Assembly (NCBI GenBank): GCA_018816945.1
Contig: JAHIVC010000025.1
Location: forward strand, 1-64,000
Length of the DNA: 64,000 nucleotides
DNA from: Bacteroidota bacterium
GTDB lineage: Bacteria > Bacteroidota > Bacteroidia > Bacteroidales > GCA-2711565
Direction of reading: 5' to 3'
Position 1 is the first letter of the stretch. The number at the start of each line of letters is the position of its first letter. Below the pieces are notes generated by a model, which made no database searches, was not told the origin of the DNA, and saw only the letters and a program-made list of their open reading frames with translations. Shown piece after piece: positions 4,601 to 50,690 of the stretch. The position numbers were made by a program, and so were the translations under genes.

Positions 4601-4842
4601 GTAAATGCAATCATGGATCCATCAGCAGAAAAACGAGGATAACGCTCCTGACCATCATCCAAAGTCAATCGAATAGCAACCCCACCGTTTGCAGGGACGG
4701 ACCATATATCTTCACCTGAAACAAATACAATTTGATTCCCATGAATATCAGGAAATCGCATTAATTGTGCTGCTCCCATTGCAGTCATGCTTATCATTAC
4801 AAAGAATAATAAACCCGGAATAAACAATTTAAAAGTTTTCAT
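1615..4842 (-). CDS. Tricorn-like S41 family protease
   Basis: A 1075-residue exported protein with a signal peptide over about residues 1-24. The N-terminal half carries WD40-like PD40 beta-propeller blades, recognisable by repeated SPDGSKIAY, SADGSMIAF and SPDSKYIAY motifs. A helical tricorn-core segment follows, with Ser740-His741 in NTSHTYVYGG, then a PDZ-like stretch (GEYLLAVNGIEV) and the S41 domain with Ser964-Gly-Gly-Asp in YAGSGGDELPY. The order and residues match tricorn protease homologues, where the Ser/His pair and the later Ser and Asp are catalytic. It should degrade peptides in the periplasm. Length is normal for the family. It has its own promoter (4893-4924) and terminator (1460-1489), so it is a single-gene unit. 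Confidence 0.93.
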   Translation of the reverse strand: MKTFKLFIPGLLFFVMISMTAMGAAQLMRFPDIHGNQIVFVSGEDIWSVPANGGVAIRLTLDDGQERYPRFSADGSMIAFTGEIDGNADVYVMNNNGGDICRVTYHPGADEVIGWHPTKNKIIFSSGRNSTSRYTKLFLISPDGTGIEELIMYDAARGSFSSDGAKIAYNKTSREDRTWKRYKGGRAQEVYIYDFATDEERNITNFDGTDRMPMWIGDKIYYVSDKDRVLNLYSFDNNTGETKQLTKHSEYDIRRPEFDNKNIVYELGGQIWKYDIATNKASQVPIEILADAPETRPLIKNVSDIIQGFDISPTGKRALINARGEIFSVPTEDGSIRNISNNCGARDKDAAWSPDGSKIAYISDESGEFEIYVQDAKGETEAARLTTHKNGYRHTLRWSPDGTKIAFADQTLRCYFIDVATKKITEVAQAKHENVDISLDHKPIYDFQWSPDSKYIAYSHMNSSFVYQVYIYSLENKKNYLVSNGLFNDFNPVFTKDGEYLLFISNRRFDPTFCDIEWEMVYKDIAGVYALSLKADGKSILPYKSDEENVKKVEKVNTPFRIDFDGLVGRIEALPVARGNYRDLTVNDGNLFYLNAEDGDFNRMDYRALPPRTLYAYNFESAKEEVVIEGVNNYKLSADGSSIVYSKGRNIGIISSKAKNSKGNNLNLSELKMNIDPRSEWKAVFNEAWRMERDFYYEAGMHGIDWDQMRVKYGKLIELATCRQDVQFIIGELIGELNTSHTYVYGGPREREASRVNVGVLGVDWKIDKGHYQFKKIYLEPDWSREIYPPLAKPGLNVKEGEYLLAVNGIEVSTDKNIYSYFVDLGGKQIDLLINNVPDKKGARTITVVPERSEAGIRYMEWLEDNRKAVDKASGGKIGYIYFPDTYEGSAIDFPKYFYSQTKKEGLIIDGRFNGGGLDPEIFFQRLLKKPHGYWTRRYSADQQIPALAVTAHMACLTNRYAGSGGDELPYEFQFNKMGPVIGTRTWGGLVGVSMFLELMDGSGLTAPDYRIYNEQGDWVVENEGVTPDIIIEQKSTDLAKGYDTQLMKAVEVLMKQIKEKPYVFPTHKPFKIDR

Positions 4843-6418: not shown

Positions 6419-8047
6419 ATGAAAAAAACGATAATGAGTATTACACTCATGTTGGCAATCAGCCTAAGTCTCATCAGCCAACAATTACCACTCACAGTAG
6501 CCGAAAAATCAGACTATAAAAGCACTTCAACCTATGCCGAAGTCATTGCCTTTATCAAGGATCTTAATGCTTCTCCATCTCAAATGAAAATTGAATACTT
6601 TGCCACAACCACTTATGGCAAGGAACTTCCATTACTCATTATTGCTGATCCTATGCCGCAGGGTCCTGCAGATTTAAAAAACGATAATCGGGTAGTTGTT
6701 TATATTCAGGCAAACATTCATGCAGGTGAGGTAGAAGGAAAAGAAGGCTCTTTAATGCTTGTTCGCGACTTGCTAAACACGAAATATGCATCCATTTTAA
6801 AAGATGTGGTGGTATTAGTCGTTCCAATTCTTAATGCCGATGGTAACGATCAGATAAGCAAAGCAAACCGCACCAATCAAAATGGGCCTGAGAATGGCGT
6901 AGGTGTTCGTCATAACGGGCAATACCTCGACATGAACCGAGATGCCATGAAACTTGAAACGCCCGAATTAAATGGTGTAGTTCAAAATATTTTAAACCGA
7001 TGGGACCCCTCTGTTATGGTTGATTGCCACACAACAAATGGATCTTACTACGAAGAACCGGTGACTTTTGGTTGGGTAATGAGTCCGAATGGCGACTTAA
7101 AAATTAGGAATTTTATGAGAGATGTGATGATGCCGGATGTGCAAAATCGATTAAAAAATGATTACAAAACCGATAATTGTTTTTATGGCAATTTTATCGA
7201 TAATCGAAACCCTGATAAGGGATGGATTTTTGATGCTGCTTCAGCTCGTTACATGACAAACTATATTGGGGTAAGAAGCCGCATGGCGATTTTGAATGAA
7301 AACTATGTACACGCCGACTATAAAGCCAGGGTTTTGGGTTCGTATAATTTACTAAAATCAATTTTAGATTATTCTGCAAAAAACAAAACCTTAATTAATA
7401 AACAAATTTCGGATGCCGATGAAAGAACCATTGCTAAAGGTAATAATCCTGACAAAGATTCGAAATTTGCTATTGAATATAAACCAACTCCTACACCTAA
7501 AGATGTTACAATCAAATCATATACAGTGGAAGAGTATAAGGATGAAAACGGGAGAACAAGATATCGACCTACGGATATCAAAAAAACGGTAACAGTGCCT
7601 TATCTTGCAGAATATATTGCCACAAAGGAAGTAAATACTCCTTACGCCTACGTTCTGTTGCATCCTGATGTAAAAGTCCTGAACAATTTGAAAGCTCATG
7701 GTATTAAAGTCGAGAAACTAAATAAAACCACTAAACTTGAGGTGGAACGATTTAAAATCAATGAGATCATTGGAGGACCAAATTTGAATCAAGGGCATTA
7801 TAATACACTGCTTAAGGGTGAATTTGTTACCGATAATTTAGATTTTGAGGCAGGAACCTACATTGTGAGAACAGGTCAAAAACTAGGAAATTTAGTTGCC
7901 TATCTTTTAGAACCCGAATCAGATGATGGATTATTGTACTGGAATTACTTTGATAAATACCTGGCACCGCAATGGGGAAGAAATTATTTCCCTTACCCTG
8001 TTTTTAAGGTCATGAAAAAAACAGAACTTCCAACAATAAAAATTTGA
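6419..8047 (+). CDS. M14 family zinc carboxypeptidase, exported
   Basis: A 542-residue protein with a signal peptide (first ~22 residues, MKKTIMSITL...). The ATG at 6419 is preferred over a TTG nine bases upstream because it starts directly at the positively charged signal-peptide end. Zinc ligands typical of M14 peptidases are visible: His101 and Glu104 in NIHAGEVEGKE, and His204 in DCHTTNG. The conserved LNADGNDQ and NRDAMKLETPE segments lie between them. It should trim peptides in the periplasm or outside. The C-terminal ~200 residues are outside the catalytic domain and have no fold I recognise. The disrupted LOG-family gene starts 23 bases downstream and may share its transcript. Confidence 0.9.
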   Translation: MKKTIMSITLMLAISLSLISQQLPLTVAEKSDYKSTSTYAEVIAFIKDLNASPSQMKIEYFATTTYGKELPLLIIADPMPQGPADLKNDNRVVVYIQANIHAGEVEGKEGSLMLVRDLLNTKYASILKDVVVLVVPILNADGNDQISKANRTNQNGPENGVGVRHNGQYLDMNRDAMKLETPELNGVVQNILNRWDPSVMVDCHTTNGSYYEEPVTFGWVMSPNGDLKIRNFMRDVMMPDVQNRLKNDYKTDNCFYGNFIDNRNPDKGWIFDAASARYMTNYIGVRSRMAILNENYVHADYKARVLGSYNLLKSILDYSAKNKTLINKQISDADERTIAKGNNPDKDSKFAIEYKPTPTPKDVTIKSYTVEEYKDENGRTRYRPTDIKKTVTVPYLAEYIATKEVNTPYAYVLLHPDVKVLNNLKAHGIKVEKLNKTTKLEVERFKINEIIGGPNLNQGHYNTLLKGEFVTDNLDFEAGTYIVRTGQKLGNLVAYLLEPESDDGLLYWNYFDKYLAPQWGRNYFPYPVFKVMKKTELPTIKI

Positions 8048-34893: not shown

Positions 34894-35149
34894 ATTTTAA
34901 GTAGTTCAAACTTGCTTGATAACGATCTTAAAATAAAAAGAACCTATTACGAAGTAATAAGGGGTTTTGGGTTAGCCTTCCCCCAACGCAGAATCAGCAA
35001 AACCAATTCTTTCAGGTTTGCAGGTTTGCAGATTAATAAAATGTTTTAAATATGAAATAGTTAAGAAACGAAATAAGAATTTACAATAAATTTATTTTTA
35101 TGTATTGCAATAGAATTAAGATTCTTATTTAAAATATGATAACTAAGCT
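34894..35149. other. Intergenic region between tRNA and MG2/plug gene
   Basis: No gene is visible. It holds a second weak hairpin (CCTATTAC-GAA-GTAATAAGG near 34943-34962) and a tandem CAGGTTTG twice at 35013-35028. A terminator for the leftward gene at 35150 is expected but not obvious. Confidence 0.5.
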
Positions 35150-37486
35150 TTATTCAACCTTAAATGAAGTTTTACCATAACACTTACTTCCATCATTTGT
35201 ATAGCCTTTAATAATCACTTCATATTCTGAGCAGTGATCAGAAGTGTAAAAAGATACGGATGCCTTATTATCTGTCAACCTTAAGTTTGGATTCCAATAA
35301 AGTAAGTTTCTAAAATCGGCCAATCGACTTGATTTTTTTTCCGCTGTATCATACACGGGCGGGTCAAATCCATAAGAAGGAGAAATTGCTTGGTATTCGA
35401 GAAATGATGATTCTTCGGGTAATTTAACTCCACCAAAATTATCGCTGTTTGTTGATAGCACAACAACCCCGTTTATAATGTGCCCACCTATCATACGAGT
35501 TCCTAGGTGCAAATCAATTTTTTCGACCTTAGCTAGGGGAATATCTAATAGGTTATTTACATTAAAAATAGGAATGTTATCAACCATAATCAATGGATCG
35601 TCAATAAAAAGATCTTGTCCATCATCGAAAAGGGATAAAGAATATTGGTCTTTCTTTTTTCGTACCACAAGATCAGGAATAATTTCTCTTAAAAACATTT
35701 CTAATGTTGCTGTTTTTACGTAGTCGTCAATAGCTACTGATACTTGAGGAATCCAAAAATTAAATGGAAAAGTGATCTCTGGCGGATGTATTGTGCCCCT
35801 TTTTATTCTGAAGATTTTTTCTGCTTGCATATTAACATACATTTCTTCCAAAAATTCGTATTGAGAAGCATCTATTGAAAGAGGAACATTATTTATAGCA
35901 GGAAATTCAGATAAAAATTCATCATTTATTTGGAATTCTACTTCACTACCCAAATTAGAATTTGAGCATAGAAAAATATTTTGATGATCGACTAGATTAT
36001 TCAGCGAGAATACAAACGCTCCATTCTGTTGTGACCTATAGATATGAAGTTGGTTGGGAGCAAATGTAGAGAGATAGACAAGGGTATTTGGTAAGGGCAA
36101 ACCGTTTGTTTTATTGTAGATTCTACCGCTAATAAAGCTTTTATCTCGAATTTCTGGTATCCATTGCGTAATGCTTGTGTTTTTCTTAAGCATTTTATGG
36201 AAAGAGGTTTGAGATACCATATTACTATATATAATCATTAAGGTATTAATTTGTTCATCAGTTAATAAGCTTACAAACTCAATATCTTGTAAGTAAGATT
36301 CTATAAGCTGTGGACACTCCATGATATATTTAAATAAAATATCTGGCTTATATGTTGTGCCCTTTTTAATAACTGATATTGATAAATCCATTGGTGTGTA
36401 ATCACTTGAATTGATAAAGGGTTCGATATTCAATTGGATACGTTCTCTTTGTGAATAATTTTCCTTGTCTGTGCTTATGTTTAGCTGGTTGCCTTTATTT
36501 TGATGATAAAAGGCACTGAACTTAATTATGCTGTCTTGTTTGTTTTTGATGATTAGATTGTTGATACCTTCTTCAAGCACATCGGCTGAGAACTTTAATT
36601 GACTTTCTTGATTTATTAAATCAAAATTGGATTCAGCAAGTATTCTAGCGTTTTGGGAATAAATCATAAGTCGGTAATTTTGACTTATTTCACTGATTCT
36701 CTTCCCTTTATTGATGATATCCACAACTAGCTCACCGTTGGATGATATTTCTGACTTTACAGCCATTCCAATCTCAGACACATCAGGTAAAGGCTGAACA
36801 ATTGAATCATTGCTTTCCAGTAATAGTTTAATTGCATAGCTTGATAATTTAGAGGGAGTGATTTCAAAAAGGCAAATTCCATTTTTTGAAATCGAAGGGC
36901 TAGAAATGATATTCTTCTTGCCATCAATAAGGTAAATACTTTCTATTCTATGACTTATATCTTCATTGATTTTACAAACAACCTGAGTTTTAATCCCATC
37001 TAGTAATTCGCCTCCACTAGGAATTATTTGAATGTTCGCTCTCTCTAGATTAGTTTTTTCTGATAATGCAATATTTGGATTAACAACTGTAATGAGTGAA
37101 GTAAAATAATTGCCTAGGGGGTGATTTTTCAAAAACTGTGTATATGCTCTTAAAAAATAATTCCCTGATAAAAATTCTGAAGGTATATCAATTGATCCAA
37201 ATGCACTTCCATCCGAAATATTAAACTTTCTTTTTACCATAAACTCTCTTGAGTTATTGTAAAACTCAACATAAAGCACATTACTTAAATTTGTCTGTCT
37301 TGTTTCTCCGGGTAGGTAACAAAAGGCTTTAAACCAAATTTTCTCTCCCGATATGTACAAATTTCTATCTGTTCGTAAAACAACTTTTTCGTCTATATTT
37401 TCCAAAGAATTGCTAAAATGCCTATTGTTATTAATCTGTGCTAAACTCGAGTTTGAGATCAGTAAAAATAAAAATATGTATTTCAT
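35150..37486 (-). CDS. Exported MG2-like protein with TonB plug-like domain
   Basis: A 778-residue protein with a signal peptide (~1-16, ending SSLAQ). It begins with a macroglobulin MG2-like domain: VVLRTDRNLYISGEKIWFKA and YFLRAYTQFL. A central part has a carboxypeptidase-regulatory-like stretch (ISGRIYNKTNGLPLPNTLVYL). Near residues 590-690 a segment with PLIMVDNIPIF and GHIINGVVVLST resembles a TonB receptor plug domain. It has no barrel of its own. Such proteins accompany TonB receptors in Bacteroidota. It is the third gene of the operon with the TonB receptor and DUF4249 lipoprotein, so it probably works in the periplasm on the same substrate. Confidence 0.75.
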   Translation of the reverse strand: MKYIFLFLLISNSSLAQINNNRHFSNSLENIDEKVVLRTDRNLYISGEKIWFKAFCYLPGETRQTNLSNVLYVEFYNNSREFMVKRKFNISDGSAFGSIDIPSEFLSGNYFLRAYTQFLKNHPLGNYFTSLITVVNPNIALSEKTNLERANIQIIPSGGELLDGIKTQVVCKINEDISHRIESIYLIDGKKNIISSPSISKNGICLFEITPSKLSSYAIKLLLESNDSIVQPLPDVSEIGMAVKSEISSNGELVVDIINKGKRISEISQNYRLMIYSQNARILAESNFDLINQESQLKFSADVLEEGINNLIIKNKQDSIIKFSAFYHQNKGNQLNISTDKENYSQRERIQLNIEPFINSSDYTPMDLSISVIKKGTTYKPDILFKYIMECPQLIESYLQDIEFVSLLTDEQINTLMIIYSNMVSQTSFHKMLKKNTSITQWIPEIRDKSFISGRIYNKTNGLPLPNTLVYLSTFAPNQLHIYRSQQNGAFVFSLNNLVDHQNIFLCSNSNLGSEVEFQINDEFLSEFPAINNVPLSIDASQYEFLEEMYVNMQAEKIFRIKRGTIHPPEITFPFNFWIPQVSVAIDDYVKTATLEMFLREIIPDLVVRKKKDQYSLSLFDDGQDLFIDDPLIMVDNIPIFNVNNLLDIPLAKVEKIDLHLGTRMIGGHIINGVVVLSTNSDNFGGVKLPEESSFLEYQAISPSYGFDPPVYDTAEKKSSRLADFRNLLYWNPNLRLTDNKASVSFYTSDHCSEYEVIIKGYTNDGSKCYGKTSFKVE

Positions 37487-37524
37487 TTAAATTATTTTAA
37501 TATTAATAATTTTTAATCACGTAA

Positions 37525-38757
37525 TTAATCATCCCAAAAATCCGGTTTTTGGTTTGTTCCCCCTCTTGTTCTGCAATCGATACAATCTTTTGACACAAAT
37601 GTCTCTATAAATACGTATTGACCATATAAAGGGGGAATCCTTACCCATCCGTAAGCTACATATAGTGGATAGTTGTCAGGATGAACCCATGCAAGATAGG
37701 CTTCAACATCGTCTATTAAAGGGATAAAACAATGATCTATAGAATAATCATAGTCAGAATCAATAAACACCTTAGGAGTGAATATATGCGGGCTTTTATA
37801 AACACCTGCAACCAAAAAATATCCAAGTACTGCTTCCTCCGGATTTTGTGTGTTGACAAGGTTTCCTAAAATTCGATAGGGCTGAGATGTATACAAATCG
37901 TCTGTATTTGAATTTTGATCTGCTATTCCTTTATAAAAAACATATGCATTTTTTGAAATGGTGAATTGCTTGATAAATAAACAATATTTTTCCCTAAGTT
38001 TATAATCTTTAAATGATGCAAAACTCAGTGGAAAATTATTAATTTTAGGGCTAGACAGAAACTCAGTGCTCTGTGTGAACACTTTTTTTATTGTATTGAT
38101 ATTCCAACAATAAAATAAGCTGTTTGCTTCTTCATACGTGACCTTGGTGAATTTCCCATTGAATATTTTTGTGGCTCTATAATAGGCATGATATTCGTAA
38201 CTTTCTTCCAATTCCCAATAATAATAGTTTTTATCCTCCGCTGCTGTTTTAGTTGTTACATAAAATTGATAGCCTTTTTCTTCGGTACCAGCTTCGTCTA
38301 ATCTGTCCTCTGTTAACCGGGTTTCTATTTCAAAATGAGCAGATTCTATTTCAACAGGCGATCGTAATTCTTCAAATTCCGATTCATAGTGTTTTTCACT
38401 TGCAATGATGCTAAGTTTGTACTTTCTTCCAATAATCCCTTGTATTCCTGTTTCAGATGTTTTATAAACCCCGGCTTCTACTTCTAAAAGTGTTTCTGAA
38501 TTTCCTTCATCATCAGTAATTGTAACTATAGCGTCCGATACCGGATTAAAATCAGATATCGAATCAAAATCTTGAAGAGAGCTCGTAGTTGATAAAGTTA
38601 TGGTGTATGGACCTGGCTCGTTAGTAATTTTTCCATCGACAACCAATAAGCTTTCGTGTCCATTTTTTAAGTCGGGCCAATATTTCTCGACGCAGGAAAT
38701 ACAGGCAACCATTAAAAATATAAAAATAGATAATTTTGTGTTTACTGATTTATTCAT
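37525..38757 (-). CDS. DUF4249 family lipoprotein
   Basis: A 410-residue lipoprotein with lipobox ACISC (Cys ~22). The start of the mature protein, LLVVDGKITNEPGPYTITLS and VSDAIVTITDDEGN, is typical of DUF4249, an Ig-like region followed by a mixed domain. Members are encoded beside TonB-dependent receptors in Bacteroidota and probably sit on the outer membrane as the substrate-binding partner, like SusD. The substrate is unknown. The C-terminal GGTNQKPDFWDD is also found, in decayed form, upstream (38794-38832). Confidence 0.82.
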   Translation of the reverse strand: MNKSVNTKLSIFIFLMVACISCVEKYWPDLKNGHESLLVVDGKITNEPGPYTITLSTTSSLQDFDSISDFNPVSDAIVTITDDEGNSETLLEVEAGVYKTSETGIQGIIGRKYKLSIIASEKHYESEFEELRSPVEIESAHFEIETRLTEDRLDEAGTEEKGYQFYVTTKTAAEDKNYYYWELEESYEYHAYYRATKIFNGKFTKVTYEEANSLFYCWNINTIKKVFTQSTEFLSSPKINNFPLSFASFKDYKLREKYCLFIKQFTISKNAYVFYKGIADQNSNTDDLYTSQPYRILGNLVNTQNPEEAVLGYFLVAGVYKSPHIFTPKVFIDSDYDYSIDHCFIPLIDDVEAYLAWVHPDNYPLYVAYGWVRIPPLYGQYVFIETFVSKDCIDCRTRGGTNQKPDFWDD

Positions 38758-38793
38758 ACTAATTAGTTCATTTTTTAATATTGTTATATGAGA

Positions 38794-38832
38794 TAATTAA
38801 TCATCCCAAAAACCGGTTTTTGCTTTATTCCA
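38794..38832 (-). pseudogene. Relic of a second DUF4249 gene 3' end
   Basis: About 39 bases match the last codons and stop of the adjacent DUF4249 gene (37522-37560) almost base for base, including the shared TAATTAATCATCCCAAAAA followed by CCGGTTTTTG (minus-strand codons for QKP..FWDD and TAA). One base is missing, so the frame is broken. It sits 54 bases before the TonB receptor stop side, between that receptor and the intact DUF4249 gene. Confidence 0.75.
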
Positions 38833-38847
38833 CTTTTATTACTAATG

Positions 38848-41658
38848 TTAACTATCAAAATTTCCAAGCTTAAAATTATAGGTTAATGAAACAATTGGAG
38901 CAGCAAAAATGGACAACTTATACCCTTGTATTTTATTCTCTTCTTGCTTAAAATAAATTGAATAGGGGTTATTAGTTCCCAAAACATTGTATATAGAAAA
39001 GGTCCAAGAACCATGAGCAGCCTTATTTTTTAGCAAGTTACCTTCTGTTGTGAATGATAAGTCTAGTCTGAGATAATCGGGAATCCGATATTCATTGCGT
39101 TTTGAATAATTTAATATTTTTATCCCGTTCTGAAAATAAAAAGAGGTAGGATATGTGATTGGCCTCCCTGTTGAATAGACAATATTGTATGATAGTCGAT
39201 GTCTTCTAGCAAAATCATAATTGGCTACTAAATTAAGAGCATGTGGCTTATCATAATTTGAGGGATAAGGTTCTCCATAGTTTATTCGATTTTCAGCAAA
39301 TTCACTGTCAATCAATACGCTTGTATGGGAGTAGGTGTAGTTGATCCACCCAGTGAGAGATCCAATGTTCTTTTTTAACATTAGCTCGACCCCATAAACC
39401 TTCAAATCACCCTGCAGAGTGCTTTGTTCGATGTATTTATTTAAAGAGAAATCATGCCCATCTTTTATTTCTACTATGTTTTTATTCTTTTTATAATAAG
39501 CTTCTATCGATACTTCATATTCATTTGCGGAAAGGTTTGAGAAAAAGCCTACCGAAAATTGATCGCCAATAATAGGCTTTGTATTATAATCAACCAGTTT
39601 CCAAGTGTAATCAGGTGAAACAGCAATGGTGTTAGAAAGCATATAAATATATTGATGCAATCTGTTATAAGATACTTTTACAGACACATCATCTGTGATG
39701 CTGTACTTAGCAGCTGCTCTGAAATCTAAACCACCATAAGATTTTGCAATTTGATTATTATCAAAAAATAGTGAGTCCTGAATATTAGATCCTAGCATTG
39801 GTAAACCTTCGGAGTATTGATAAACTTTTTGTGGTCCAAGGGATGCGTAAATATTATATCGAACACCTGCATTCAATGATAATTTGGGCGTTACATCCCA
39901 TTCATCTCCTAGATAGATTCCAGATTCGAGCCCTTTTTCAGTGCCCAAATATAAGTCTTGCACCAAACTGCCAGGACCAAGTGGGAGTCTACTTCCTCTA
40001 TCAATTTGATAAAGAATTGAGTTAACTCCTGCATCAATACTATGTTTGTGATTAGGTCTGAAATTAAAGTTTGCTTTTATTTCACTATGTTCCAGTTTGT
40101 AATTTTGCTTAAAAGCAGAAAATACAAATTCAGACACTTCCTTTTCGAAATCGTATATGCTATGAGCAAGGCTTAATTCAAAGGTGTGTTTTTCTTTTAA
40201 AAAATGTTTCCAGTTTGCCGAAACTCCAATGTTTTTATAGTCATATTCGGTGTTTGTCGATACCAATTTCATCTTATCATAACTGTAATATGCGAAAACA
40301 TTTAAGAGGTTATTTTTATTGAGTTGAAAAGAAAGATTACCAACAAAATCAGCAAAGTTTGCTTTGCTGTCTTCTATGTCTTGGTCATCAAACATCATGT
40401 CAATCGCCCAGTCTGAATATGTCGATCTCATCCCAATTAAAAAACTACTTTTATCCTCTTTAATCGGCCCTTCAACCAATACTCTCCCTGTAATAAGGCT
40501 AATCCCACCGTTAGCAGTAGTTTTGTCTTCCCTCCCTTGTTTCGTTTTTATGTCAAATATTGATGATAAGCGACCTCCATATTTTATAGGGATATTACTT
40601 TTATAAAGGGAAAACTCATCAATGGCATCGGTGTTAAAAGATGAGAAAAATCCAGAGGCATGAGAGGTGTTGTAAATAGGTACATTATTTATATAAAATA
40701 AATTTTGATCTGTTGGACTACCCCTTACATTAAACCCTGCCGAACCCTCTCCAATGGCTTGAACACCAGGCAGCAACAATGCTATTTTCATAACATCTTT
40801 TTCACCAAAAACAAGAGGGATGTTTTTTACTGCCTTTGAGCTCAAACTTTCTATCCCCATTTGCGTTCCTTTCACTTTATTCTGCCTTTGAACACGAATA
40901 ACGACATCATCAAGTAAATAAATTTTTTCTTCAAGTAACAATTCTATGGTTCCGTTTGATAAAAGTTCAACTGGAACTCTTTTTTCATTAATATTTATCC
41001 CATTTATGACCAGTATGTGCTTCCCTTTTTCTAAAGTTATTTGAAAAAAACCAGTATCATCAGCTGCAACTCCAATTTTAGAGCCTTCATCCATGATGGT
41101 TGATCCAGTAATAATCTCACCCGTTTTAGAATTTTTAGTATAGCCGCTTAGTGTGACATTTTTTTTATTTACGCCATCTTTTTTGGTTCCAACCACAATT
41201 GTTTTTGGAGCATATTGATTTATAGTTTTTAAAAAATCTGCATCAATTTTGTCAACTGAAATCTCATTTTCTTCTTGCTTAGGTTTGATCAATTGAGAGA
41301 AAAAATTGGATGGTAGACTTGTATTAAGTACAACACCTTTTGTTAAAAAAATATTCCCCTTCCGATCGATAGAAACAGCAATATTATATGCATCTAAATT
41401 TTCATTCAGGATTTTTTTTAAAGATGAAGATTCTCTGATAGCGATGTTAAATTTGGGAATGTCTATTTCGTAGTAGAAAAAATGAACATCATATTTCATT
41501 TCTATTTTTTGTACAAAATCAGCCCAAGCTAAGTTATTATATGTTTCTGAAATAATAATATCAGACTGACCGAATGATTGTATGCTTAAAAGAAGAATAA
41601 ATCCTGAGAGAAGTACAAACTTCATTTTGGAATTCTTATTTTGATGAGATTTCATCAC
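38848..41658 (-). CDS. TonB-dependent receptor with STN domain
   Basis: A 936-residue outer-membrane receptor. After a signal peptide (to ~residue 31) comes an STN domain (~32-105, LKKILNENLDAYNIAVSI), as in receptors that signal to sigma/anti-sigma pairs or process the substrate. A carboxypeptidase-regulatory-like domain follows (~165-250, GYTKNSKTGEIITGSTI), then the plug (~265-380, GEGSAGFNVRGSPTDQNLFY) and a 22-strand barrel ending in a terminal aromatic-rich strand. It imports a ligand using TonB energy. A later ATG at 41622 is a possible start. It leads an operon with a DUF4249 lipoprotein and the MG2/plug protein. No FecI/FecR pair is adjacent. Confidence 0.93.
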   Translation of the reverse strand: MMKSHQNKNSKMKFVLLSGFILLLSIQSFGQSDIIISETYNNLAWADFVQKIEMKYDVHFFYYEIDIPKFNIAIRESSSLKKILNENLDAYNIAVSIDRKGNIFLTKGVVLNTSLPSNFFSQLIKPKQEENEISVDKIDADFLKTINQYAPKTIVVGTKKDGVNKKNVTLSGYTKNSKTGEIITGSTIMDEGSKIGVAADDTGFFQITLEKGKHILVINGININEKRVPVELLSNGTIELLLEEKIYLLDDVVIRVQRQNKVKGTQMGIESLSSKAVKNIPLVFGEKDVMKIALLLPGVQAIGEGSAGFNVRGSPTDQNLFYINNVPIYNTSHASGFFSSFNTDAIDEFSLYKSNIPIKYGGRLSSIFDIKTKQGREDKTTANGGISLITGRVLVEGPIKEDKSSFLIGMRSTYSDWAIDMMFDDQDIEDSKANFADFVGNLSFQLNKNNLLNVFAYYSYDKMKLVSTNTEYDYKNIGVSANWKHFLKEKHTFELSLAHSIYDFEKEVSEFVFSAFKQNYKLEHSEIKANFNFRPNHKHSIDAGVNSILYQIDRGSRLPLGPGSLVQDLYLGTEKGLESGIYLGDEWDVTPKLSLNAGVRYNIYASLGPQKVYQYSEGLPMLGSNIQDSLFFDNNQIAKSYGGLDFRAAAKYSITDDVSVKVSYNRLHQYIYMLSNTIAVSPDYTWKLVDYNTKPIIGDQFSVGFFSNLSANEYEVSIEAYYKKNKNIVEIKDGHDFSLNKYIEQSTLQGDLKVYGVELMLKKNIGSLTGWINYTYSHTSVLIDSEFAENRINYGEPYPSNYDKPHALNLVANYDFARRHRLSYNIVYSTGRPITYPTSFYFQNGIKILNYSKRNEYRIPDYLRLDLSFTTEGNLLKNKAAHGSWTFSIYNVLGTNNPYSIYFKQEENKIQGYKLSIFAAPIVSLTYNFKLGNFDS

Positions 41659-42063
41659 AGTATTTTAGTAAAAAATATAATTGAATGTAGCTAACCTTAC
41701 TAAAGTTGATCCTGTTCCTTTTAATACATTTATCAATTTCGTTTTTATTGGTTGAGAAATAAATGCAAAAGTAGAACAAGATAAGACTACTAAAAAGAGT
41801 ATAGATGGCTTTTCTAAATGAGAATTGGTCAAGCTCATATTTGATTTTATGTTAATAAATATTAACCTATTTCAAGATAAGAGAATTGTTAGTTGTGTAG
41901 AGTTAGAATAGTGCTAGAATCAATAAATTGTAACTGCTAATATATAAATATACGCTAAATAATTAACTTGTACAATTTTAAATAGCTTTTTCTACTTCAC
42001 ATTGGCATGATATTCATGTTTTTGGCAGAAAGGAATCATCCCCAGCCTAGAGATTTACTTTCT
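41659..42063. other. Intergenic region upstream of the TonB receptor operon
   Basis: This 405-base AT-rich gap contains the -7 element at 41766-41773 for the leftward operon. I see no gene, no repeat and no clear terminator for the gene ending at 42064. Confidence 0.5.
41766..41773 (-). promoter_or_regulatory. -7 element of the TonB receptor operon
   Basis: On the minus strand TACTTTTG matches TAnnTTTG. It lies 108 bases before the first ATG, leaving a leader of about 100 bases. No good -33 box was found. Confidence 0.4.
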
Positions 42064-48299: not shown

Positions 48300-50690
48300 T
48301 TATTCGTATTTTAAAGCATTTACAGGGTTCATCCTACTCGTTTTAACAACCTGAAATATAATTGTTAGTAATGCAACAAAGAAGGCAATGAAAGATGCCA
48401 GAATAAAAATCCAAATACCAATTTCTATTCGGTACGAAAATCCATCAAGCCATTTACTCATAAAATACCAACCCAGAGGAATGGCAATTAAACTGGCAGC
48501 CAAAATTAACTTTATATATATGTGCGTCAGAGAAATCGCAATCTGATGTAACTCGGCACCTAATACTTTTCTGATTCCTATTTCCTTGACTTTTTGAACC
48601 AATGCAATTGAAACGATGCCAAAAAGACCTAATGTTGCAATAATTATAGCCAAAGCAGATAAGGAGGTAATGATAATCGCCGCCTTATCTGCTTCTGAGT
48701 ACATCTCTTTGAGCTCTTCTTTAACACTCATTGATTCGATAAAATAGCTTGGGTACAAATCGGACATTTTTTGGTTAATTTGTGTAATGGTTTCCTTAAG
48801 TCTGCTGGGTTCAACTTTCACAAACATGTTCCCATAAAACCTTGGATGACTCGCAAATACCAAGGGATCAATTTCTAAATGTAAAGAGTAAGTATGGAAA
48901 TCTTTAACAACTCCACAAATGATTCCGGTAGTGCCACTAAACGAAATTCTTTTGTTTATTGCATCTTCAGGATTCTTAAACCCATAAATTTTATAAAGCT
49001 TCTCGTTGACAACTACTCTAAAAATAGAGTCGCCTTTGGTTCTTTCATCAAACCATTTACCTGCCAGTAAATTAAGATTAAATACTTCTGAATATCCAGC
49101 ATCTGCAGGTTTGAAGTTCAAAAGCCGGTTAATGCTTTCATCCTCGCCTTCTACTGTAAACGCTGTTGTAAAATTACGAGAAGATGATGGTGAACCAATC
49201 CCAAATCCGAAGTGTTGCACCCCAGGCATCGTTTCTAAAAACTGCCTTAAAGATTGTACACTTGAAGAATCGTTCTCGGGCAATGAAAACTTAATTACAT
49301 TATCAATCTGAAATCCTAAATCTTTATGATTTACATAACTGATTTGCATTTTTATAACAATAGTTGCAATAATTAAAGCAATTGAAACCGTAAACTGGAA
49401 TACTAGCAAGATATTTCTTAGACTAAATATCACTTGTTTCGAATTTGACAATTTACCTTTTAGAGCTTTTATCGGTGTAAACCGCGACATAACAAAAGAT
49501 GGATACAAGGCGATAATAATATTAACAATGACGTAAACAGCAACAAAATAAATAATAAAATAGGAACTATTATAGATACTCAATTGATGGTTATTCCCAA
49601 GAAAAATGTTGATATATGGCAATACAACTTCAACTATTATTACCGCAACAACCAATGCAATAATTGAGATCATTGCATTCTCTTTAATAAACAGGAAACT
49701 TAGCTGTGATTTAGAAGCACCTAAAACTTTTCGAACCCCCACCTCCTTTGCTCTTTTCAACCCTTGAGCCATTGATAGATTAATGAAGTTAATTCCGGCT
49801 ATAGCAATAATTAAAATACCAATAAAAGCATAAATCCATAAACTCGTTTCAGAGGTAGTATAGGTATTTGGTAAATTTTGATAATCCGGCTCGAGATGCA
49901 TTTTGCTTAATAGCTGAAAATTAAAATGTGTAGTTTCATATTCATCATTTCGGTATTTCCTAATTACTTCATTCATTCTGGTTTCAAATTCATCCAGATT
50001 AACATTCTCTCCAATTTTCACATAACATTCAAATCCTGAAATAGTATTACTCCAACTATCATATTCAAATCCGAGGGTTTCAGCATTTAAATTTTCAACA
50101 GAAAGGATCATTGAAAAGTCAAGGGTTGAGTTTAGAGGTTGGTCCTTTATCAAGCCAACAATTTGATAATTAATATTCGGAGAAAAAGTGATTATTTTGC
50201 CAATCGGGTCTTCACTACCAAAGTATTTTTCGGCAACGGATTTAGTAATTGCAATATTTTGTGGGTGTTCAAGAATAACTTCCGGACTTCCCACAATGAA
50301 CTGAAGATCAAAAACGCTAAAGAAAACCGAATCCACAAACAAAATATTCCTTTCTCTGAAAATTTTTTCGTTAGATAATATATCCTGACTACCAGACATA
50401 TAAATTGAAGTGAAATCAAAATCAGGAAAATCATTTCTTAGTGAATATGCCATTGGAAACGAAGTAGCCCCATTTCGATTAGTGCTGCTTGCATGACTTA
50501 TCGTTCTGGTTATCCTATAAATTTGATCTTTATTTTTATAATAATTATCAAAACTAAGTTCAAACTCAATAAAGAGAAAAACAATTATTGAGCTCGCTAA
50601 GCCAATTGATAAACCTAAAACATTAATAAATGAAGAGGTTTTATTCTTCCAAATATTACGTAGAATATACTTGATACTGATTTTTTTCAT
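48300..50690 (-). CDS. MacB-like ABC transporter permease (second of three)
   Basis: A 796-residue permease of the same layout: first helix in LGLSIGLASSIIVFLFIEFELSFD, MacB_PCD domain, helices around 290-400, second half from ~430, and terminal NPVNALKYE. It is much more similar to the first permease (50692) than to the third, with matching stretches such as FINLSMAQGLKRAKEVGVRKVLGASKSQLS, so this pair arose by duplication. The start follows the previous stop by one base. Confidence 0.93.
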   Translation of the reverse strand: MKKISIKYILRNIWKNKTSSFINVLGLSIGLASSIIVFLFIEFELSFDNYYKNKDQIYRITRTISHASSTNRNGATSFPMAYSLRNDFPDFDFTSIYMSGSQDILSNEKIFRERNILFVDSVFFSVFDLQFIVGSPEVILEHPQNIAITKSVAEKYFGSEDPIGKIITFSPNINYQIVGLIKDQPLNSTLDFSMILSVENLNAETLGFEYDSWSNTISGFECYVKIGENVNLDEFETRMNEVIRKYRNDEYETTHFNFQLLSKMHLEPDYQNLPNTYTTSETSLWIYAFIGILIIAIAGINFINLSMAQGLKRAKEVGVRKVLGASKSQLSFLFIKENAMISIIALVVAVIIVEVVLPYINIFLGNNHQLSIYNSSYFIIYFVAVYVIVNIIIALYPSFVMSRFTPIKALKGKLSNSKQVIFSLRNILLVFQFTVSIALIIATIVIKMQISYVNHKDLGFQIDNVIKFSLPENDSSSVQSLRQFLETMPGVQHFGFGIGSPSSSRNFTTAFTVEGEDESINRLLNFKPADAGYSEVFNLNLLAGKWFDERTKGDSIFRVVVNEKLYKIYGFKNPEDAINKRISFSGTTGIICGVVKDFHTYSLHLEIDPLVFASHPRFYGNMFVKVEPSRLKETITQINQKMSDLYPSYFIESMSVKEELKEMYSEADKAAIIITSLSALAIIIATLGLFGIVSIALVQKVKEIGIRKVLGAELHQIAISLTHIYIKLILAASLIAIPLGWYFMSKWLDGFSYRIEIGIWIFILASFIAFFVALLTIIFQVVKTSRMNPVNALKYE

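Follow-up and report, generated by a model that had tools for sequence, protein, structure and literature searches.

The window, by which we mean the whole stretch of 64,000 nucleotides analysed here, carries an operon on the minus strand in which a TonB-dependent receptor gene (R) is followed by a short repeat, a DUF4249 gene (D) and a further gene, M. The repeat resembles the 3' end of D. How did the end of a DUF4249 gene come to stand behind the receptor, and is the lipoprotein gene now next to it the receptor's original partner? The following features of the window bear on this question.

35030..41650, strand not assigned: block of low divergence (R, the stub of a first DUF4249 copy, D and M), limits approximate, from 500-base windows
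35150..37486, minus strand: M, the conserved last gene of the operon, 778 aa; no family matched in a Pfam search
37525..38757, minus strand: D, the surviving DUF4249 lipoprotein gene, 410 aa; PF14054, E 2.5e-37
38797..38822, minus strand: repeat of the 3'-terminal 27 nt of D, lacking one A, from the alignment
38797..38858, minus strand: probable stub of a first DUF4249 copy, its frame broken by the loss of one base; from the alignment with the sister genome and with the tail of D, start site as in relatives
38848..41658, minus strand: R, TonB-dependent receptor, 936 aa; Pfam plug, barrel and CarbopepD_reg_2 domains
41636..41761, minus strand: probable stub of gene U, the ~40 codons at its 3' end, which include the receptor start; E 7e-6, 3.4e-5 and 4e-4 by tblastn and 9e-10 by profile

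The repeated end of the DUF4249 gene

R contains both PF07715 and PF00593, as expected of a TonB-dependent receptor, and its stop codon lies at 38850-38848. D scores 129.3 bits against a PF14054 cut-off of 28.5; the domain spans residues 24-320, and the C-terminal tail lies outside it. A PDB sequence search with D and M gave no match at E values up to 1, and an NCBIfam search with D, R and M gave none at E values up to 0.001. The structure of D predicted from 9 sequences was poor (mean pLDDT 47).

When aligned without gaps, positions 38775-38821 and 37503-37549 share 79% identity over 47 nt. With one gap allowed, 38822-38797 equals the last 27 nt of D (minus strand, 37551-37525) minus a single A and is otherwise identical. 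The strong match is confined to these 27 nt and the AT-rich sequence past the stop codon. When positions 38758-38900 were searched as DNA against the 4.14 Mb genome, the query site and the DUF4249 tail were the only significant matches (E 3.6e-9), the next one in the same genome having an E value of 0.148. The intact 27-mer, searched as a pattern in which as many as 3 mismatches were tolerated, was found in the D gene alone; this search permits no gaps, so that the stub is invisible to it. The local score between stub and tail was 42, compared to at most 26 in 300 shuffles, which together with the E value of the genome search rules out a chance origin. Thus, alignment and genome search confirm the original prediction that the DUF4249 3' end is repeated, with one base missing, directly behind the TonB receptor. 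The prediction had named a dispersed repeat as the finding that would overturn it. This was ruled out as well, since no significant site other than the stub and the tail of D exists in the genome.

Probable remnants of a first DUF4249 copy and of gene U

The sequence behind the receptor is composed of a TTG start within the last codons of R, a few further codons, and then the DUF4249 tail to its stop. The same arrangement is seen in a sister genome (G001), which shares 97% identity with the window in its R, D and M proteins. As far as seen, the missing A is private to the window genome; the sister retains it and carries one substitution near it relative to the window. Its stub reads as 20 codons in frame (TTG ATA GTT AAC ATT AGT AAT AAA AGT GGA ATA ACG CAA AAA CCG GAT TTA TGG GAT GAT TAA), giving the peptide LIVNISNKSGITQKPDLWDD. 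The C-terminal end of this peptide scores 56 to the DUF4249 protein of locus L024 and 55 to D of the window, with at most 46 in 1000 shuffles. The family's C-terminal tail is therefore in frame with a start codon in the sister, and this frame is broken in the window. With start codons and ~13 tail codons left, the stub does not qualify for the DUF4249 domain and is a remnant rather than a member of the family.

The position of the start codon is informative. In the relatives, the open frames of the receptor and the first D overlap at 71 of 77 junctions, the other six being those of the window, the sister, L035, L127, L145 and L151. The first D starts at the overlap with ATG in most of the 27 junctions inspected, and with TTG in L076, where D is full-length. 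The start of the stub is thus the expected start site of a first D. As it lies inside the receptor end and is joined to a DUF4249 tail, the stub combines the two ends of a first copy without its middle.

Upstream of the core, the sister stub differs from D, and because its peptide is as near to the L024 tail as to that of D, it gives the impression of a separate gene. Its tail and that of D in the window share 26 of 27 nt, and no other tail shares more than 21. Between the mates of one array, tails agree in 5 to 26 of 27 nt over 29 pairs, many of which differ more than the stub does from D, the low values being partly due to unequal tail lengths. Over 91 nt, the stubs of window and sister differ by 3 substitutions and 1 indel, which is near the dS of 0.04 of the neighbouring genes and would fit neutral decay. 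Neither an intact first copy at this locus nor the deleted middle was found in any genome examined.

A second remnant lies at the other end of the receptor. In paralogous operons, a gene of ~250 aa, here called U, immediately precedes the receptor. U was found over at least 150 profile positions in 68 of 80 receptor-DUF4249 loci; it was absent at a contig edge in 8 and partial at an edge in 2 (L037, L093). Window and sister are the only two of the 80 in which it is missing despite room upstream, and the U stub of the sister carries internal stops. Three U proteins gave no Pfam family above cut-off. The two stubs together point to an operon of the order U-R-D-D-M from which U and one D were lost, except for the ends that interlock with their neighbours.

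Such arrays exist among the relatives. We collected loci around matches to D and ran profiles for D, R and M over them. R-D-M or longer forms were found in most loci, the operon of the relatives being U-receptor-DUF4249-M with one to five DUF4249 copies. At least two true D copies were present in 15 of 88 chosen loci, a count that is not a frequency, since the loci were chosen from ranked matches and tandem ones were favoured in one round. The arrays are the following.

Five copies: L086
Three copies: L035, L074, L075
Two copies: L007, L036, L037, L076, L083, L085, L088, L089, L090 (second broken), L091, L151

In L090, we took the final two D rows to be one broken copy, and L137 (a single copy split by a stop) and L141 (a fragment and a full copy) were excluded. 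In a D tree of 51 rows, the mates of one array clustered in 12 of 14 arrays, the exceptions being L076 and L083; this count uses the N-terminal parts of L007, and L151 was not in the tree. Array copies are thus mostly each other's nearest kin, as expected for birth and death in tandem.

Three of these loci deserve comment. L007 comes from a genome of the same genus (G002). Its 3.1 kb contig contains an N run, and the first copy has an insert that looks foreign. Its two copies cluster on their N-terminal parts (support 92/87), and the C-terminal part of copy 1 gives no clear placement. Because they group together, they look like a separate duplication and not like the ancestral pair. At ~1660-1815 of this locus, inside the first copy and beside the N run, lies sequence unlike DUF4249, probably a scaffolding chimera, which we take to resemble the YbjQ family. 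L141 holds at 7584-7796 an independent DUF4249 C-terminal fossil of ~64 profile positions, 142 nt upstream of a full D; the fragment gave no Pfam family above cut-off, and no receptor was found on the retrieved stretch. In L035, a repeat unit of the D2-D3 spacer is also present in the spacer upstream of D1 (score 59; at most 15 in shuffles), which may be another scar of a first-position copy, though the sequence is ambiguous. This upstream spacer (4660-4807, receptor to first DUF4249) contains what may be a leftover start (ATGAAAACTAGACGG...), together with a GGGAAATAGGG-rich unit that recurs before copy 3 and before M.

Two other origins of the repeat were weighed against the loss of a first copy. 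A short duplication or template switch could have copied the 3' tail of D and some spacer, so that a full first copy never existed. Such an event would leave a strong match restricted to the final 27 nt and to AT-rich sequence beyond the stop, as is observed. However, it does not account for a sister stub that begins at the family's first-D position and stays open to the tail, that departs from D upstream of the core, and whose peptide is equally near to L024; arrays are, moreover, common among relatives. We regard tail-only copying as improbable. Even less credible is a regulatory or RNA role for the repeat, as a hairpin or an operator retained at DUF4249 ends. In the window, the repeat does form a perfect 16-nt palindrome, CAAAAACCGGTTTTTG, and the tail of D has it with two mismatches, but the perfect palindrome is absent from the sister stub. 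Folding z-scores were -0.86, -1.26 and -0.93, the genome holds no further significant match, and the stub has changed at about the rate of dS. Loss of a tandem DUF4249 copy is thus well supported by the sequences. The original prediction had left open whether such a copy was deleted or exchanged; deletion is borne out by the start-to-stop mini-gene of the sister, by the 15 arrays and by the lack of dispersed copies, and an exchange of the lipoprotein gene alone is not.

Probable exchange of the operon, and the partner of the receptor

All 13 windows of 500 bases from 35,001 to 41,500 are 97.0-99.2% identical to the sister contig. The flanking windows are mostly 84-95% identical (best 95.6%), and some far less. 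Likewise, dS against the sister is 0.039 for M, 0.041 for D and 0.042 for R, and it ranges from 0.162 to 0.701 in 27 flanking ORF pairs (at least 150 codons, reciprocal best matches, all from one stretch of 45-50 kb). Between the same two genomes, dS in the paralogous operon is 0.25-0.43. Within the stretch compared, low dS is confined to the R-D-M operon: differences become dense below ~35,030 and from ~41,650, and these edges lie no more than ~150 bases from the stop of M and the start of the receptor. The GC content of the block, 32.6% versus ~35% on either side, fails as a mark of foreign origin, as the genes of the paralogous operon are equally low.

These values indicate that the R-D-M block was probably exchanged recently between the two lineages or taken by both from a common donor. 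As the sister assembly is a metagenome-assembled genome, the block could also be an assembly chimera, which would affect the exchange and not the stub. We consider this unlikely, as the block is 1-3% divergent rather than identical, has the same position in both genomes, in the interior of contigs that are 88 kb and 54.7 kb long, and carries changes with a dN/dS near 0.3. Since the stub of the first copy travelled inside the block, its presence in both genomes cannot date the deletion before the species split.

Was the lipoprotein itself swapped? The original prediction held that it may not be the receptor's original partner and took this as a sign of cassette-like exchange of ligand specificity. 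Two DUF4249 ends at one locus, in a block that was probably exchanged as a whole, could be read as the trace of a D replaced by the lipoprotein of another lineage. However, the D, R and M trees are congruent: each recovers a clade of the window, the sister, L022-L025, L077-L078 and L007, where present (support 98/99, 100/99 and 100/99). Over 74 loci, distances between receptors and distances between D proteins are correlated (0.82), a value that none of 999 permutations reached, and the window pair shows the smallest mean deviation of the 74 from the trend. This test used one full-length D per locus, the best-scoring one, and the largest outlier was the chimeric L007, which was left unsplit. 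Finally, D, R and M have one dS in common. A foreign D is thus highly unlikely, and the comparison of receptor and lipoprotein phylogenies gave no sign of one. Swapping finds support at the scale of the operon, whose R-D-M block probably moved, and not for the lipoprotein alone. It is possible that the surviving D was chosen between two sister copies of one array.

Against the sister, dN/dS is 0.33 for D and ranges from 0.27 to 0.33 across R, D and M, which suggests that the reduced R-D-M unit is still in use. The values of the paralogous operon in the same two genomes are lower (0.11-0.18). The higher values in R, D and M may also fit weaker constraint or merely few recent, unsorted changes.

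Elsewhere in the window, positions 48500-50500, between two MacB/FtsX permease genes, are 63-65% identical to the sister contig; perhaps the permease copy differs between the genomes.

Considering the stub and the block jointly, we find it very likely that the repeat is what remains of a deleted DUF4249 gene, that the operon was thereby reduced, and that the R-D-M block was later exchanged whole. The ancestral operon would have comprised U, the receptor, DUF4249 copy 1, DUF4249 copy 2 and M. An internal deletion would have taken nearly all of copy 1, sparing its start codon inside the receptor end and about the last 13 codons beside copy 2, and U would likewise have been trimmed to its last ~40 codons, which hold the receptor start. 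Both losses would end where the coding or initiation signals of the neighbours begin, the limits presumably being set by selection on the receptor and copy 2. The surviving receptor, DUF4249 and M genes appear to be under purifying selection, presumably as a surface uptake unit with one lipoprotein. The reduced block would then have been exchanged as one piece with the sister, probably via recombination in the flanks, or both genomes would have received it from one donor.

Relation to known uptake systems

SusC/SusD systems are outer-membrane uptake pairs of a receptor and a surface lipoprotein, and the DUF4249 proteins of Bacteroidetes are partners of TonB receptors. Like SusC and SusD, R and D are likely a receptor and its surface lipoprotein partner encoded side by side. 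Unlike a SusD protein, D carries PF14054 only, without the SusD family of Pfam, and the pair is therefore not a member of the SusC/SusD class. An excerpt of one paper describes BT2172-BT2173 of Bacteroides thetaiotaomicron as a TonB transporter and a DUF4249 protein in a conserved operon, where disrupting either gene gives similar consequences (PMC11003636). The window shares with this pair the receptor gene beside a DUF4249 gene. It differs from the excerpted description in holding stubs of one D and of U; one DUF4249 protein is named there (PMC11003636), whereas the relatives of the window have one to five copies together with the conserved U and M. By analogy to the genetics of BT2172/BT2173, D would be the partner of R, and in a SusC/SusD-like manner it may capture the ligand for R. 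In the open-licence literature searched, we found no paper naming a DUF4249 ligand.

Birth-and-death evolution of tandem arrays leaves pseudogene stubs. The DUF4249 loci resemble such arrays in their lineage-specific tandem duplicates, broken copies and loss scars. Unlike in the typical case, the lost gene keeps both of its ends, interlocked with the neighbours in an operon of overlapping genes. The stub is therefore ordinary in kind, and its setting, with variable arrays, a second stub and a probably exchanged operon, is informative.

The stub shows that DUF4249 arrays shrink as well as grow. Our survey supplies an operon frame of U, R, D and M, and it names loci in which one, two, three and five lipoproteins accompany a receptor, which makes it testable whether extra copies widen the ligand range. 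The sharply bounded block of low dS is a candidate for the exchange of a whole receptor operon between species. Tentatively, and as a possibility that we would not yet call probable, U-R-DUF4249(n)-M may be a modular uptake system with fast change in copy number (one to five) and a core block that moves between species as a cassette. If so, ligand capture would be renewed by growth and shrinkage of the array, through tandem duplication and internal deletion, and by replacement of the whole operon, the ends of the cassette being the ends of the operon.
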